NCBI GenBank assembly: GCA_022508665.1
Contig: JAFLUT010000014.1
Coordinates: 1-36,282 of the forward strand
Reading direction: 5' to 3'
DNA from: Prevotellaceae bacterium
GTDB lineage: Bacteria > Bacteroidota > Bacteroidia > Bacteroidales > Bacteroidaceae
Length of the DNA stretch: 36,282 nucleotides
Position 1 is the first letter of the stretch, and each line of letters starts with the position of its first letter. Of the stretch, positions 1,851 to 7,568 are shown piece by piece. The position numbers were made by a program, and so were the translations under genes. A model generated the notes under the pieces. The model was not told the DNA's origin. It made no database searches and saw only the letters and a list, made by a program, of their open reading frames with translations.

Positions 1851-2609
1851 ATGAGGCTTACCTACATATTTCATAGTTGTTTTGTTCTGGAAACAGAAAA
1901 GTCAATCTTGCTATTTGACTACTGGCAGGATCCTTCACATGGCATTTCCCGATTTCTGATAAATGACAAGCCGCTGTACGTGTTCGCCAGTCATTTCCAT
2001 GAAGACCATTTCAATAAAGAAATCTTCACATGGAAAAAGCAGAAACATAATATTACATACATATTAAGCAAGGACATCCTTCGGCACAAGAGAGCAAACA
2101 AAGAAGACGCTGATGTATGGCTAGCAAAAGGCGGCACATGGACTGACGGAACAGTATCAGTAAGGGCAACAGGCAGCACAGACATTGGCGTCTCATGGAT
2201 TGTTGAGACGGAAGGAAAACGAATTTTCCATGCAGGAGATTTGAACAACTGGTATGCTAAGTTTCTCCCAAATGCGAAACATGGAGAGACAATCCATAGC
2301 GAAGAAATGGATGAGGACATTGACCCTATAGCCCATGAGAAACAATATCTTGGCGAACTGAAAGATATTCGCAAGATAACGGATAGATTTGACATTGCAA
2401 TATTCCCCGTAGACGGAAGAATTGGCAATGGCTACACGCTTGGAGCCCGCCAATTCATAGAGCGCTTTGATGTCAGGCTCTTCGTTCCCATGCACTTCGT
2501 AGCCAGCGGTTTTGAATCCGCATGGCGTTTCAAGGAATATGCTGACATAAAGGATGTACAGTTTTGGGATATAAACAAAGAGGGAGAGTGTATAAATGTT
2601 CTACAATAA
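1851..2609 (+). CDS. MBL-fold metallo-hydrolase
   Basis: About 252 residues starting with M-R-L-T-Y-I-F-H-S-C. The zinc-binding motif is intact: H48-F-H50-E-D52-H53. A later H-A-G-D supplies the next ligands, and P-M-H-F near the C terminus the last histidine. The layout is that of UlaG-like / UPF0173-type metallo-beta-lactamase-fold hydrolases, which act on small phosphoesters, lactones or nucleotides; substrate unknown. I chose the ATG at 1851 because the frame upstream has only a TTG overlapping the previous gene, and the beta-strand of the fold begins right after this ATG. It is 10 bases past the acetyltransferase stop, so the two are probably one operon. Confidence 0.8.
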   Translation: MRLTYIFHSCFVLETEKSILLFDYWQDPSHGISRFLINDKPLYVFASHFHEDHFNKEIFTWKKQKHNITYILSKDILRHKRANKEDADVWLAKGGTWTDGTVSVRATGSTDIGVSWIVETEGKRIFHAGDLNNWYAKFLPNAKHGETIHSEEMDEDIDPIAHEKQYLGELKDIRKITDRFDIAIFPVDGRIGNGYTLGARQFIERFDVRLFVPMHFVASGFESAWRFKEYADIKDVQFWDINKEGECINVLQ

Positions 2610-2664
2610 TCAAAATAGTGACAGTCAAAATACAAGCACATTACACATCATTAGTTCATTACCC

Positions 2665-2686
2665 CAGTCCTCTCCCCCAAGGACTG
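2665..2686. repeat. Small hairpin with CAGTCCT / AGGACTG arms
   Basis: CAGTCCT (2665-2671) and AGGACTG (2680-2686) can pair across an 8-base loop in the gap after the MBL-fold gene. The arm sequence resembles the core of the tandem repeats at 3841 and 19910. The rest of 2610-2769 shows nothing I can name. Confidence 0.4.
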
Positions 2687-2766
2687 CAAAGGGAACTTTT
2701 ATTGGGATGATTTTGTATCCAATCATAAAAATATGGTTGTATTATAAAGATTTTTCCGTCATAAAG

Positions 2767-2797
2767 TTGTTTGTTTGCAAGAAAAGGTGTATCTTTG
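2767..2797 (+). promoter_or_regulatory. Promoter of the Phe/Tyr operon
   Basis: A perfect -7 element TATCTTTG sits at 2790-2797. Upstream, TTG at 2767-2769 (20-base spacing) overlaps TTTG at 2770-2773 (16-base spacing). Transcription would begin near 2803-2806, leaving about 20 bases before the leader-peptide start at 2826. Confidence 0.65.
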
Positions 2798-2825
2798 CAA
2801 AGTTTTATACAAAAAAGGGTAACAA

Positions 2826-2882
2826 ATGAAGTCATTTTATGGCACATACTTTTATTTTTACTTTTACTACGGCGAACAGTAA
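2826..2882 (+). CDS. Phe/Tyr leader peptide of the pheA operon attenuator
   Basis: An 18-residue ORF, M-K-S-F-Y-G-T-Y-F-Y-F-Y-F-Y-Y-G-E-Q, with 4 Phe and 6 Tyr codons, eight of them in the stretch 2847-2870 (TAC TTT TAT TTT TAC TTT TAC TAC). It lies between the promoter at 2790 and the terminator at 2939, directly ahead of pheA. Such amino-acid-rich leaders are the sensing element of ribosome-mediated attenuation (known from trp, phe and his operons of Proteobacteria). The stop codon at 2880-2882 is followed by AGCGGG at 2884-2889, which can pair with CCCGCT in the left arm of the terminator. A ribosome finishing at the stop would cover that strand; one stalled on any Phe/Tyr codon would leave it free. 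No strong Shine-Dalgarno is visible. Confidence 0.85.
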   Translation: MKSFYGTYFYFYFYYGEQ

Positions 2883-2883
2883 G

Positions 2884-2965
2884 AGCGGGAAGTTATGTGT
2901 TATGACAGACTTGGAAAAAGACAATGAATAATGTATAGCCCCGCTTCTATAAGCGGGGTCTTTTT
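2884..2965 (+). promoter_or_regulatory. Transcription attenuator: antiterminator strand and terminator
   Basis: Terminator: CCCCGCTT (2939-2946), loop CTAT, AAGCGGGG (2951-2958), a perfect 8-bp stem followed by TCTTTTT (2959-2965). Antiterminator: AGCGGG (2884-2889) is exactly complementary to CCCGCT (2940-2945), extendable by one G-U pair, and would consume most of the terminator's left arm. The two structures cannot coexist. The run of T ends 9 bases before the pheA start, so termination here shuts off the whole operon. The predicted logic is read-through when tRNA-Phe or tRNA-Tyr is uncharged. Confidence 0.8.
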
Positions 2966-2974
2966 ATATGATAT

Positions 2975-3817
2975 ATGAGAAAGATAGCGATACAAGGAGA
3001 AATAGGGTCATTCCACGATGTGGCGAGCCACTGCTACTTCGAGGGTGAGGAGATAGAGATTGTGTGCTGCGACACATTCGAGGGGGTGTTTGAGGAAATG
3101 AAGAAGGACTCGAATGTGATTGGCATTGTGGCGATTGAAAACACTATCGCTGGGTCGCTGCTACACAACTATGAGTTGCTGCGTGAGAGCGGGATGCAAA
3201 TCATTGGCGAGCATAAGTTGAGAATATCTCACTCCATAATGTGTCTGCCAGACGAGGACTGGGCGGACATTACGGAGGTGAACTCGCACCCTGTGGCGCT
3301 GATGCAGTGCCGCACATTTCTGAAACAGCACCCTGAGTTTAAGGTGGTTGAGACGGACGACACGGCTGGTTCGGCGAAGAACATCAGCCAGAAGCAACTG
3401 AGGGGGCATGCTGCGATATGCTCTAAGTTTGCCGCTCCTCTGTATGGCATGAAGGTGCTTGAGGAGGGAATTGAGACGAACAAGCACAACTTCACACGTT
3501 TTCTCGTGCTGTCCGACCCGTGGCAGGCGGAGGAACTAAGTGTGCCGAGCCAGTCGAACAAGGCGAGCATCGTGTTCAGCCTGCCTCACAATGAGGGGTC
3601 GCTGTCGCAGGTGCTGAGCATCTTCTCTTTCTACAGAATAAACTTGACAAAGATACAATCGCTCCCTATCATCGGCAGAGAGTGGGAATACATGTTCTAC
3701 ATTGATGTGCTGTATGATGACTACACGCGTTATCGCCAAAGCATTGATGCGGTACGCCCTCTGACAAAGCAGCTGAAGATTTTGGGAGAGTATCAGGAGG
3801 GAAAAAGCACAGTGTGA
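2975..3817 (+). CDS. pheA: Prephenate dehydratase
   Basis: 280 residues converting prephenate to phenylpyruvate. The catalytic PDT domain spans roughly 3-182 with E-N-T-I-A-G-S at 55-61 and the signature T174-R175-F176 in H-N-F-T-R-F. A C-terminal ACT domain (about 198-275) should bind phenylalanine; in place of the usual E-S-R-P motif it has T-K-I-Q-S-L-P (225-231), a variant I associate with Bacteroidetes. There is no chorismate mutase domain here; that activity is fused to the DAHP synthase two genes on. The ATG at 2975 follows the attenuator terminator by 9 bases. First structural gene of the Phe/Tyr operon. Confidence 0.95.
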   Translation: MRKIAIQGEIGSFHDVASHCYFEGEEIEIVCCDTFEGVFEEMKKDSNVIGIVAIENTIAGSLLHNYELLRESGMQIIGEHKLRISHSIMCLPDEDWADITEVNSHPVALMQCRTFLKQHPEFKVVETDDTAGSAKNISQKQLRGHAAICSKFAAPLYGMKVLEEGIETNKHNFTRFLVLSDPWQAEELSVPSQSNKASIVFSLPHNEGSLSQVLSIFSFYRINLTKIQSLPIIGREWEYMFYIDVLYDDYTRYRQSIDAVRPLTKQLKILGEYQEGKSTV

Positions 3818-3916: not shown

Positions 3917-4004
3917 AATTTTAACGGTGTGGTGGAAATGTGGCAAACTGTGCGTGAAAAGCGTAAGAAATAGTGAATAAGAATTTGTTAAAATAGTGAA
4001 TATA

Positions 4005-5168
4005 ATGGTACAGCCAGCAGATAGATTATCGCTCGTAAGCGAGTATTATTTCTCAAGAAAACTGAAGGAGGTGGCGAAACTTAACGCTGAGGGGAAGGAC
4101 ATCATTTCTCTTGCAATCGGTTCGCCCGATATGCCACCAAGTGAGGAGACAATAGATGTGCTGTGCGAACACGCTAAGCGTCCTGACGCTCATGGCTATC
4201 AGCCAACCATGGGAATACCAGAACTGAGGGATGCCATGGCAAGGTTCTATAAAAGGTGGTATGATGTGGAACTTGACCCTGCAACGGAGATACAGCCGCT
4301 CATTGGCAGCAAGGAGGGCATTCTGCATGTGACGCTCGCCTTCTGCAACCCGGGAGACAAGGTGCTGGTGCCTAATCCGGGCTACCCTACTTACACATCG
4401 CTGAGCAAAATTCTCGGTCAGCAGGTAGTGAACTACGACCTGCTGGAAAGCAACGGCTGGCAGCCCGACTTCGAGCAGTTGGAGAAGATGGATTTGGAGA
4501 GGGTGAAACTGATGTGGACGAACTATCCGAACATGCCGACTGGCGGGCGTGCAACGAGAGAGTTGTATGAGAAGATTGTGGCTTTTGCAAGGGCGCATAA
4601 CATCGTGGTTGTGAACGATAACCCCTACTCTTTCATCCTCAACCGTGACGAGCATCTGAGCATTCTGCAAGTGGACGGAGCAAAGGATTGCTGCATAGAG
4701 TTCAACTCGATGTCGAAGAGCCACAATATGCCCGGTTGGCGTGTGGGAATGCTGGCAACGAACAGTACTTTTGTGCAGTGGATACTGAAAATAAAGAGCA
4801 ATATCGACTCCGGCACATTCCGCCCCATGCAGTTGGCGGCAGCGCAGGCATACGACAACACAGAGGAGTGGCACACGCAAGCGAACATTGAGACTTATAC
4901 CACTCGCAGGAAGATTGCGGAAGCCATAATGACAAAACTGGGATGCACTTTCGACCCAACTCAGCAGGGCATGTTCTTGTGGGGGCGCATACCGGAGAAG
5001 TACAATGATGTGGAAGATTTGACGGAGAAAGTGCTGCACGAAGCACGTGTATTCATCACTCCGGGATTTATCTTCGGGAGCAACGGCAAGAGGTATATCC
5101 GCATCAGCCTTTGCGCAAAGGATGAGAAGATGCAGGAGGCTTTGAGGAGAATAGAGGAAATCTTCTAA
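4005..5168 (+). CDS. PLP-dependent class I/II aminotransferase (aromatic/aspartate type)
   Basis: About 387 residues. Fold-type I landmarks are present: N176 in N-Y-P-N-M-P-T-G, D205 and Y208 in N-D-N-P-Y, the Schiff-base lysine K238 in S-M-S-K-S-H-N-M-P-G-W-R, and R246. Between pheA and the DAHP synthase it most likely transaminates phenylpyruvate and 4-hydroxyphenylpyruvate to Phe and Tyr; this comes from context, since the family also includes aspartate and other transaminases. A GTG nine bases upstream is in frame, but the ATG at 4005 is preferred. The gap from pheA holds the 22-base tandem repeats. Confidence 0.9.
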   Translation: MVQPADRLSLVSEYYFSRKLKEVAKLNAEGKDIISLAIGSPDMPPSEETIDVLCEHAKRPDAHGYQPTMGIPELRDAMARFYKRWYDVELDPATEIQPLIGSKEGILHVTLAFCNPGDKVLVPNPGYPTYTSLSKILGQQVVNYDLLESNGWQPDFEQLEKMDLERVKLMWTNYPNMPTGGRATRELYEKIVAFARAHNIVVVNDNPYSFILNRDEHLSILQVDGAKDCCIEFNSMSKSHNMPGWRVGMLATNSTFVQWILKIKSNIDSGTFRPMQLAAAQAYDNTEEWHTQANIETYTTRRKIAEAIMTKLGCTFDPTQQGMFLWGRIPEKYNDVEDLTEKVLHEARVFITPGFIFGSNGKRYIRISLCAKDEKMQEALRRIEEIF

Positions 5169-5211: not shown

Positions 5212-6279
5212 ATGGAACTTGAACTTTTACCATTAGGTCTTCCAAGCGACAATGAACGTCCGTTTGTCATCGCAGGCCCATGCTCGGCTGAGACCGAAGA
5301 GCAAGTAATGGCTACTGCACGCCAATTGGCGGATAAGGGATGCCACATCTTCCGTGCAGGAGTGTGGAAGCCACGCACAAAGCCGGGTGGTTTTGAGGGC
5401 AACGGAGAAATGGCTTTGCCGTGGATGAAGCAAGTGAAAGAGGAGACTGGCATGCTCACTGCTGTTGAGGTGGCAACTCCCGAACACGTTGAGTTGTGCC
5501 TCAAATATGGCATTGACATTCTTTGGGTAGGCGCACGCACAACGGCTAACCCATTCGCCGTACAAGCAATCGCTGACAGTCTGAAAGGCACGGATATTCC
5601 TGTACTGGTGAAGAACCCTGTCAATCCCGACCTCGAACTGTGGATTGGTGCTTTGGAACGCATCAACGGTGCCGGCATCAAGAGGCTCGGAGCAATCCAT
5701 AGAGGTTTCTCATCATACGACAAGAAGATTTACCGCAACCTGCCTATGTGGCAAATTCCAATTGAATTGAAGCGCCGCATTCCAAACATTCCTATCGCTA
5801 ATGACCCAAGCCACATCGGCGGTCGTCGCGACCTCATCGCCTCGCTTTGTCAGCAGGCAATGGATTTGGGTATGGACGGACTTATCGTTGAAAGTCACTG
5901 CAATCCTGAAACGGCATGGAGTGATGCAAGCCAACAGGTAACGCCAGACATCCTCGATTATATTCTTTCAATCCTCGTCATCCGTGCCGAAACACAGACA
6001 ACTGAGAATATCACTGCGTTGAGAAAGCAGATTGACGAGATTGACAATAACATTATTGAGGTTATTGCCAAGAGAATGAGGGTGTGCCGCGAGGTTGGGC
6101 AGTACAAGAAGGAGCATGGCATGACTATTGTGCAGACAGCACGATATAACGAAATTCTCGAAAAACGTGGCGCACAAGGTTCACTGATGGGCATCGATCC
6201 AGAGTGCATCAAGAAGGTGTTTGAGGCGATACACGAAGAGTCTGTAAATCAGCAGATGAAGGTGATTAACGACAAGTAA
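5212..6279 (+). CDS. Bifunctional DAHP synthase / chorismate mutase (type II)
   Basis: 355 residues with two domains. Residues about 5-250 are a DAHP synthase of the small type (G22-P-C-S-A-E-T at the front, then K-P-R-T-K-P-G-G-F-E-G-N-G, K-N-P-V-N-P-D and D-P-S-H-I-G-G-R-R). It condenses PEP and erythrose-4-phosphate. Residues about 260-345 are an AroQ chorismate mutase: L-R-K-Q-I-D-E-I-D-N-N-I-I, then K-R-M-R-V-C-R-E-V-G-Q-Y-K. The C-terminal position of the mutase is known for Porphyromonas and relatives. Since pheA and tyrA here lack a mutase domain, this is probably the mutase feeding both. It starts 43 bases after the aminotransferase. Confidence 0.95.
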   Translation: MELELLPLGLPSDNERPFVIAGPCSAETEEQVMATARQLADKGCHIFRAGVWKPRTKPGGFEGNGEMALPWMKQVKEETGMLTAVEVATPEHVELCLKYGIDILWVGARTTANPFAVQAIADSLKGTDIPVLVKNPVNPDLELWIGALERINGAGIKRLGAIHRGFSSYDKKIYRNLPMWQIPIELKRRIPNIPIANDPSHIGGRRDLIASLCQQAMDLGMDGLIVESHCNPETAWSDASQQVTPDILDYILSILVIRAETQTTENITALRKQIDEIDNNIIEVIAKRMRVCREVGQYKKEHGMTIVQTARYNEILEKRGAQGSLMGIDPECIKKVFEAIHEESVNQQMKVINDK

Positions 6280-6368: not shown

Positions 6369-6764
6369 ATGAAATATTTTATACAAAACCTCACTGTATT
6401 CTGCTGTTCTCTACTACTATTAATATTAGTTGTAAACTGCTCTGATTCGCATAAAGCAAATTCAGATACATCTTTTTCTTCCGAACTTGTTGAGCTTGCA
6501 AAGCTTGGAAATGCAGAAGCTCAATACAAATTAGGACGTTGTTATTACAATGGTGAAGGTGTTACCCCAAATTATACAGAAGCAGCAAAATGGATACAGA
6601 AAGCGGCAGATCAAGGATTTGCTCAAGCTCAATATAACATGGGTGACTTATACCTTGCTGGTTTGGGTGTTTGTAAAGATTGGAGCAAAGCAAAAAAATG
6701 GTATACAAAAGCCGCAGAACAGGGACATAAAGGTGCAATTATTACATTAGAAACATTAAAGTAA
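6369..6764 (+). CDS. Sel1-repeat lipoprotein inserted in the Phe/Tyr operon
   Basis: 131 residues. The N terminus is a lipoprotein signal: a hydrophobic stretch then L-V-V-N-C at about residue 25, followed by a Ser/Asp-rich linker. Residues about 42-128 hold two Sel1/TPR-like repeats (G-N-A-E-A-Q-Y-K-L-G-R-C-Y-Y-N-G-E-G-V, then A-A-D-Q-G-F-A-Q-A-Q-Y-N-M-G-D). These are protein-interaction modules, not enzymes. The gene and its flanks are clearly more AT-rich than the biosynthetic genes, and nothing links it to aromatic amino acid synthesis; it looks like a later insertion between the DAHP synthase and tyrA. No canonical promoter was found in the 89 bases upstream, so it may be read with the operon. 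Confidence 0.85.
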   Translation: MKYFIQNLTVFCCSLLLLILVVNCSDSHKANSDTSFSSELVELAKLGNAEAQYKLGRCYYNGEGVTPNYTEAAKWIQKAADQGFAQAQYNMGDLYLAGLGVCKDWSKAKKWYTKAAEQGHKGAIITLETLK

Positions 6765-6794: not shown

Positions 6795-7568
6795 ATGAAG
6801 ATACTCATACTCGGTGCAGGAAAGATGGGGTCATTCTTTACCGACCTCCTTTCCTTCGACCACGAAGTGGCTGTGTATGACATTGATGCCAAGCGACTGA
6901 GGTTTATGTATAACACACAGCGTTTCACGCAATTAGATGAGATAGATGAGTTCAAGCCCGAACTGGTAATCAATGCTGTCAGCCTCAAATATACACTTGA
7001 CGTATTCGACCAAGTCATTCCTCATCTTCCCGAATCTTGCATCCTATCCGACATCAGTTCTGTAAAGACAGGTTTCAAAGAGCATTATGAGAAATCGGGC
7101 ATGCGTTATGTCAGCACCCACCCCATGTTCGGACCTACTTTCGCCAACCTCGGCAAACTATCAAACGAGAACGCCATCATCATCAACGAAGGTGACTTCA
7201 TGGGTCGCTGCTTCTTCAAAGAACTCTACGCTCGTTTAGGACTGAACATCTGCGAATATACCTTTGAAGAACACGATAAAACCGTTGCGTACTCCCTCTC
7301 CATCCCCTTCATTTCCACCTTCGCCTTCGCTGCCGTAATGAAACATCAAGACGCTCCCGGCACGACTTTCAAACGCCACATGAAAATAGCACAAGGTGTA
7401 CTCTCCGAAGACGACACACTCCTCCGCGAAATCCTCTTCAACCCCTACACCAAAGAGCAAGTCGAGAAAATACGAAAGGAAATGAAGGAAATCATCGATA
7501 TCATAGACACTCACGATGAGGAACACATGCAGCAGTATCTAACGAAAATCCGCGCCAACATTAAGTAA
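6795..7568 (+). CDS. tyrA: Prephenate dehydrogenase
   Basis: 257 residues. An N-terminal Rossmann fold begins with the dinucleotide motif G7-A-G-K-M-G12; S-D-I-S-S-V-K and S-T-H-P-M-F-G-P-T-F are the conserved active-site region of the arogenate/prephenate dehydrogenase family. Length fits the short form without mutase or ACT domain, so feedback control probably does not act on this chain. It makes 4-hydroxyphenylpyruvate for tyrosine. The ATG follows directly on a TA-repeat (6785-6794) instead of a Shine-Dalgarno site. Last gene of the operon; a terminator lies just beyond. Confidence 0.9.
   Translation: MKILILGAGKMGSFFTDLLSFDHEVAVYDIDAKRLRFMYNTQRFTQLDEIDEFKPELVINAVSLKYTLDVFDQVIPHLPESCILSDISSVKTGFKEHYEKSGMRYVSTHPMFGPTFANLGKLSNENAIIINEGDFMGRCFFKELYARLGLNICEYTFEEHDKTVAYSLSIPFISTFAFAAVMKHQDAPGTTFKRHMKIAQGVLSEDDTLLREILFNPYTKEQVEKIRKEMKEIIDIIDTHDEEHMQQYLTKIRANIK

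Follow-up and report, generated by a model that had tools for sequence, protein, structure and literature searches.

The operon pheA-aminotransferase-DAHP synthase/chorismate mutase-tyrA of this Prevotellaceae genome is, with high confidence, governed by a ribosome-mediated transcription attenuator located directly in front of pheA. A leader peptide gene rich in Phe and Tyr codons is followed by an antiterminator and a terminator that share one strand, an anatomy that is conserved among relatives and carries compensatory changes in both stems. The first-pass annotation had already read the region as a ribosome-mediated attenuator, and the reading is now supported by the conserved leader, antiterminator and terminator, by the compensatory changes and by a predicted protector hairpin. 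The whole 36,282-nucleotide stretch of DNA that was analysed is referred to as the window, and its features are collected in Table 1.

Table 1. Coordinates of the attenuator and of the genes behind it, in window numbering.
Feature	Position	Strand	Basis or remark
Promoter box TATCTTTG, TAnnTTTG type	2790..2797	+	motif at most 75 nt before leader ATG in relatives
Leader peptide gene, MKSFYGTYFYFYFYYGEQ then stop	2826..2882	+	translation, conservation, shuffles
Protector hairpin 1:2 (predicted)	2837..2905	+	Phe/Tyr codons pair with GTAAGAGCGGGAAGTTATGTG; window fold
Unbroken aromatic codon run in leader	2847-2870	+	translation
Antiterminator strand 2, containing AGCGGG 2884-2889	2883..2903	+	pairing counts, folding
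Strand 3, common to antiterminator and terminator	2928..2946	+	pairing counts, folding
Intrinsic terminator 3:4	2938..2965	+	stem 2938-2959, T5 2961-2965
pheA, prephenate dehydratase	2975..3817	+	PF00800
Class I/II aminotransferase	3996..5168	+	PF00155
DAHP synthase/chorismate mutase	5212..6279	+	PF00793, PF01817
Sel1-repeat protein	6369-6764		between DAHP synthase/chorismate mutase gene and tyrA; lipoprotein-like start by eye
tyrA, prephenate dehydrogenase	6795..7568	+	PF02153

Operon and leader peptide gene in the window

Relatives were taken from a pheA homologue search as the best 80 of 493 confirmed candidates. Gene order was counted in those with at least 3.9 kb beyond pheA (67 of the 80 fetched), and the order of the four biosynthetic genes is kept in all 67. 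Together with the Pfam domains, this conserved order bears out the earlier statement that the downstream operon makes Phe and Tyr. The Sel1-repeat gene is an insertion, with a homologue in none of the 67 relatives, from the same best 80 of 493, that have that stretch.

Translation of the leader gives 18 residues with four Phe and six Tyr, exactly as claimed, and a stop codon at 2880-2882. A single base, 2883, separates the stop codon from AGCGGG, whose exact complement CCCGCT lies at 2940-2945 after 50 intervening bases; the proposed match between a strand just behind the stop and the left arm of the terminator is thereby confirmed. When ORFs of 10-36 codons with at least eight Phe/Tyr and at least 40% Phe/Tyr were sought, this was the sole one on either strand of the window, and 3,000 dinucleotide shuffles of 2610-2974 produced none on the plus strand. 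The leader ORF is therefore not a product of chance.

Conservation of the leader among relatives

After leaving out L025, with 37 nt upstream, and the duplicates L037 and L056, 77 distinct readable relatives remained, and 76 of them have an aromatic leader before pheA, the one exception being L032, where no leader precedes the gene. Phocaeicola vulgatus ATCC 8482 (L073) is among those with the leader before pheA. The window and these 76 relatives, all from the best 80 of 493, make up the 77 leaders to which the counts below refer. A script also found an ATG-started leader in 17 of 20 further pheA upstream regions of the family, from several genera; inspection by eye adds GTG-started leaders in L155 and L156, and in L160 an FYFYF run whose frame stays open. 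In a minus-strand set of 16 loci, 15 have the leader, L101 among them, and L096 has only 37 nt upstream.

Across 52 distinct sequences, the final eight codons (-8 to -1) make up 416 cells, of which 412 encode Phe or Tyr and four Ser, so that the alignment of relatives proposed in the first-pass annotation finds the Phe/Tyr codons conserved. Phe and Tyr replace each other at codons -8 to -5, and the last four codons are nearly fixed as Y-F-Y-F, codon choice included, which is expected because the same codons would also serve as strand 1 of a hairpin. Over the last 12 codons the aromatic share is 83% in the leader frame and 25% and 13% in the other frames. In the last eight codons the second base is T or A apart from four C, and never G, a pattern that favours selection for aromatic codons, whether Phe or Tyr. 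Residues outside the aromatic block differ from clade to clade.

Between the end of the last aromatic codon and AGC[G/A]GG lie 13 nt in 70 of the 77 leaders, 12 nt in six and 14 nt in one. The stop codon, by comparison, wanders by 43 nt, starting 3-8 nt before the motif's first base in 37 leaders and 20-35 nt after it in 40. It is therefore the distance from the stall site that is kept and not the position of the stop. A ribosome at the stop codon had been thought to cover AGCGGG, and this holds in the window and in roughly half of the leaders but fails in the 40 with late stops.

All 77 leaders contain both residues, with 4-10 Phe and 3-8 Tyr each, and keep both among their last four codons, and the operon carries the last steps to both amino acids. 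These observations speak against an attenuator that in practice answers to Phe only, or to Tyr only, a reading that we consider possible but on balance doubtful. A precedent for it is aroR of Corynebacterium glutamicum, which, in a review's account of this leader (PMC11802643), contains Phe-Tyr-Phe and responds to Phe and not to Tyr. For the element before pheA, the leader codons predict that the operon responds to Phe as well as to Tyr.

Far less probable is an arrest peptide, in which the aromatic nascent chain, with or without a ligand, would stall the ribosome in place of an empty A site. The block is very well kept, and its near-fixed final four residues would suit such a peptide. Arrest peptides usually require fixed residues, however, and here Phe and Tyr are exchanged in the first half of the block, the surroundings vary between clades, Trp, Gly or Ser occur within the block in other families, and the codons that are fixed double as strand 1 of the hairpin.

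Terminator, antiterminator and promoter

A terminator scan of 2500-3100 returned one site, a stem of nine pairs at 2938-2959 followed by CTTTTT at 2960-2965, where shuffles expect 0.3. The annotated position and the T5 ending nine bases before pheA, which starts at 2975, were both right, whereas the stem has nine pairs and not the eight first given. A hairpin with a T-rich tail was located by a simple scan in 73 of the 77 leaders, although its picks for L042 and L059 look wrong, and by eye in the other four. The antiterminator of the window extends beyond the six bases of AGCGGG to 19 predicted pairs, which join 2883-2889 to 2940-2946 and 2892-2903 to 2928-2939.

Pairing was counted in alignment A1, in which 66 of the 77 leaders remain after a similarity filter removed the other 11. 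The antiterminator is paired in 90.4% of 592 cells, compared to 31-53% for slid versions, controls in which shared ancestry remains, as it does in the permutations. Its cells changed on both sides number 37, reached by 0 of 500 shuffles, a test that overstates significance because the sequences are related; 26 of them fall at columns 89-170 (G-C versus A-U), 10 at 88-171 and one, in L008, at 93-166. The outermost pairs are poor (88-171 has 30 unpaired cells, 96-163 has 20), and a count of further pair types in the antiterminator was no better than shuffles (500/500). For the terminator, 95.9% of 658 cells are paired, and with the same reservation about shuffles, its 64 doubly changed cells were attained by 0 of 500 and its five pairs with double changes were equalled by 59 of 500. 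Compensatory changes, which the first-pass annotation had proposed to look for in both stems, are thus present in the antiterminator (37 cells) and in the terminator (64 cells).

Paired changes of the kind found in L008 (AGCAGG opposite CCTGC) are also seen in L155 and L156, with AGCGAG opposite CTCGCT. In these three loci and in L131, L141 and L175, strand 2 pairs with an altered strand 3, A-U replacing G-C, and strand 4 retains its G and forms a G-U pair. Antiterminator and terminator therefore need not change together.

Within 75 nt 5' of the leader ATG, 74 of the 77 leaders have a TAnnTTTG box, compared to 5% in shuffles, and we take this motif to be the promoter type of Bacteroidota. In the window a TTG at 2767-2769 lies upstream of the box. 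A scan of 2500-3100 for the sigma-70 consensus, which is not that of the Bacteroidota promoter type, gave no site, as expected for a promoter of another type. L032, a Paludibacteraceae MAG, has a TAnnTTTG box right before the start codon of pheA, without a leader. The box, the 19-pair antiterminator and the protector hairpin described below are all absent from the first-pass annotation. A lone terminator of upstream transcription would resemble 2938-2965, but that the hairpin is such a constitutive terminator and the ORF incidental is hardly credible with a promoter box so close before the leader in 74 of 77 cases and a leader and antiterminator that are conserved and co-vary.

A predicted protector hairpin

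For the attenuator, folding predicts that the leader codons form a protector hairpin with strand 2. The hairpin folds with a mean z of -2.9, and z is below -2 in 60 of the 77 leaders; the probability that AGCGGG pairs with the leader averages 0.78 and is 0.65 in the window. The synonymous choice of Phe and Tyr codons stabilises the predicted protector by a mean of 1.1 sd relative to re-dealt codons, with 39 of the 77 leaders below -1 and three above 1, and the window, at z -0.1, shows no such favour.

When two subgroups of 36 and 24 of the 66 rows were folded to a consensus, the hairpins in the leader part were weak (-2.2 and -8.7 kcal/mol), and the named structures were therefore counted and the sequences folded singly. 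RNAalifold on the mixed alignment found the terminator only and no leader hairpin, because the strand-1 codons differ between short and long leaders.

Folding with a stalled ribosome and the proposed switch

By convention, a stalled ribosome was modelled as covering the RNA to 12 nt past the position at which the last aromatic codon begins; PMC4833913 gives a cover that reaches at most 12 nt past the stop codon. Pairing 2:3 was called formed at an index above 0.5, the index being the sum of pairing probabilities over ten bases divided by six, which may exceed 1. With the ribosome stalled and strand 4 unmade, 2:3 forms in all 77 leaders, and the mean MFE of the stretch is -19.8 kcal/mol (window, -18.9). 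Without a ribosome, the protector has a mean probability of 0.77 and the terminator of 0.98, with an antiterminator index of 0.004.

When the full RNA with a stalled ribosome was folded at equilibrium, the antiterminator won in 24 of the 77 leaders and the terminator in 53, including the window (antiterminator 0.08 versus terminator 0.93). Since the terminator is favoured at equilibrium, the switch would have to be kinetic and set by the order of synthesis, and the equilibrium folding counts against a purely thermodynamic switch. In classical attenuators, antitermination is likewise usually argued to hang on the order of synthesis.

In the cell, the ribosome would presumably stall within the leader, the hairpin would terminate transcription and the operon would respond to both amino acids. 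The ribosome would trail RNA polymerase through the leader and, when charged Phe- or Tyr-tRNA is short, halt in the aromatic run at 2847-2870, with its front edge ending just short of 2884 and protector 1:2 blocked. Strand 2, thus freed, could pair with strand 3 before strand 4 is synthesised, and transcription would continue into pheA. With both Phe and Tyr plentiful, the ribosome would advance over strand 2, and 3:4 would form and terminate. Without translation, the protector hairpin would mask strand 2 and the terminator would form too. Where the stop codon comes late (40 leaders), a ribosome halted there would cover only a portion of strand 2 or the bases behind it, and these leaders may end antitermination by the protector re-forming behind the ribosome.

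Spread in Bacteroidota

A covariance model built from A1 was run on 345 genomes of the phylum, and 107 matched at an E-value of at most 0.01; many of the listed matches cover the 3' terminator part only, and 107 is therefore not taken as a count of attenuators. Only one match in the window's own genome has a meaningful E-value, and the second-ranked one stands at 0.33. Before hisG, thrA and trpE (174 nt readable) of the same genome, the ORF list and inspection by eye revealed no amino-acid-rich leader.

The best 29 loci besides the window (L120-L148) fall into nine families by their kinship labels, of which four lie outside the window's class. An aromatic run is present in all 29, in L136 without an in-frame ATG (GTG by eye), and pheA is the next downstream gene in 23. 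A DAHP synthase/chorismate mutase lies downstream in five, called by Pfam in L129, L132 and L140 and by similar sequence in L133 and L134, and another DAHP synthase lies downstream in L139. In these loci (L129, L132-L134, L140 and L139) an aromatic leader and a terminator-like hairpin stand before the DAHP synthase gene, not before pheA.

As a test against our own selection, we took 30 further genomes; the model had no match in 20 of them and a weak one (E 3.5e-4 to 8.1e-3) in the remaining 10. A pheA homologue was found in 25, and in 14 of them (L174-L187) the gene is preceded by an aromatic leader and a hairpin behind it, the leaders of L179 and L187 being read by eye where the script chose another ORF. 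No leader precedes the other 11 of the 25 pheA genes, which belong to families f4 (four genes), f11 (two), f12, f13, f21, f23 and f30. L194, a locus cut short by a contig end, has no leader.

The distant loci comprise 27 from L122-L148 and 14 from L174-L187, and 36 of these 41 were parsed; L143, L176, L179, L184 and L187 were left out because the parser found no terminator. Strand 2 matches its own terminator arm with a mean score of 9.2, compared to 6.7 for the arms of others. The own arm ranks in the top quartile for 31 of the 36, and the total score beats all 2,000 of 2,000 partner permutations. Pairs of strand 2 and strand 3 differ between distant loci yet match within each, as in GCCGGGACT/AGTCCCGGC, CGAGACCT/AGGTCTCG, GAATCGG/CCGATTC and GAGAACTTC/GGAGTTCTC. 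The lowest match scores (6.0 or less) belong to L137, L139, L140 and L148.

Trp codons lie in or beside the aromatic block of ten distant leaders (L124, L128, L130, L141, L144, L146, L147, L175, L176 and L180), which hints that these may sense all three aromatic amino acids.

An aromatic attenuator inherited from deep within Bacteroidota, with Phe and Tyr codons read as one signal and a fixed ruler from run to antiterminator that leaves the stop free, is a tentative proposal on which we stand close to undecided, leaning slightly against.

Relation to known systems

Leader-peptide attenuation is textbook knowledge in Proteobacteria and is known in Actinobacteria. In the Escherichia coli pheL-pheA attenuator, antiterminator and terminator compete, as they do here. 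As described in the review PMC11802643, that attenuator (RF01859) likewise places a leader peptide for the sensed residue before pheA; the present leader differs in combining Phe and Tyr, its operon adds DAHP synthase and tyrA, and its promoter is of the Bacteroidota type. Rfam was searched with gathering and with E-value thresholds; no family attained its cut-off in the window, and the 11 weak matches fell far short of theirs. The score against Phe_leader (RF01859) was 17.9 bits compared to a gathering score of 55, and the idea of a T-box or riboswitch was set aside with no known Rfam family matched. The aroR leader before aroF of C. glutamicum is, in the same review's account (PMC11802643), likewise an aromatic leader (Phe-Tyr-Phe) before an aromatic operon; it belongs to another phylum, is reported to respond to Phe only and is named with three aromatic residues compared to ten here, differences that are drawn from description.

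Closest in phylum and gene is a conserved structured 5' element that precedes pheA in Flavobacterium psychrophilum and other Flavobacteriaceae. It has no Rfam hit and comes from a study whose relevant section also reports strong indications of leader-peptide attenuation upstream of amino-acid operons in F. psychrophilum (PMC9723704). That section presents the pheA element without peptide, codons, hairpins or covariation; by this description, the two elements are probably the same. In Bacteroides thetaiotaomicron, sORFs reminiscent of leader peptides are noted in PMC7366714, whose text does not name pheA. A survey of 2010 (PMC2965389) states that, before its own Bacillus case and with the atypical ermC leader excepted, none had been shown outside Proteobacteria and Actinobacteria. 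The corresponding part of PMC1262725 reports no leader-peptide attenuation for phenylalanine or tyrosine operons in Actinobacteria, and the word "leader" is not used in the portion of PMC8305728 on histidine genes in the superphylum.

Among the matches listed in the open literature, to which the search was confined with subscription papers outside its scope, no description of an aromatic pheA leader in Bacteroidaceae was found. A comparative study of 2010 by Lopatovskaya and others, cited in PMC4833913, could contain Bacteroidota cases. The mechanism is ordinary; what is new is its place and extent, a classical attenuator with mixed Phe/Tyr codons in the relatives and in several other families. 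The earlier judgement that such a case in the phylum would be worth describing is tempered by the hints already reported for F. psychrophilum (PMC9723704).

Significance

If conserved across Bacteroidota, such an attenuator would extend leader-peptide attenuation to a phylum that is prominent in the gut and in the environment, and it would account for some of the unannotated F/Y-rich micro-ORFs in Bacteroidota genomes. It would also supply an in vivo reporter of Phe and Tyr supply and make tight coupling of transcription and translation in Bacteroidota testable. If the deep inheritance proposed above is true, ribosome and RNA polymerase would be closely coupled on the leader in much of the phylum.
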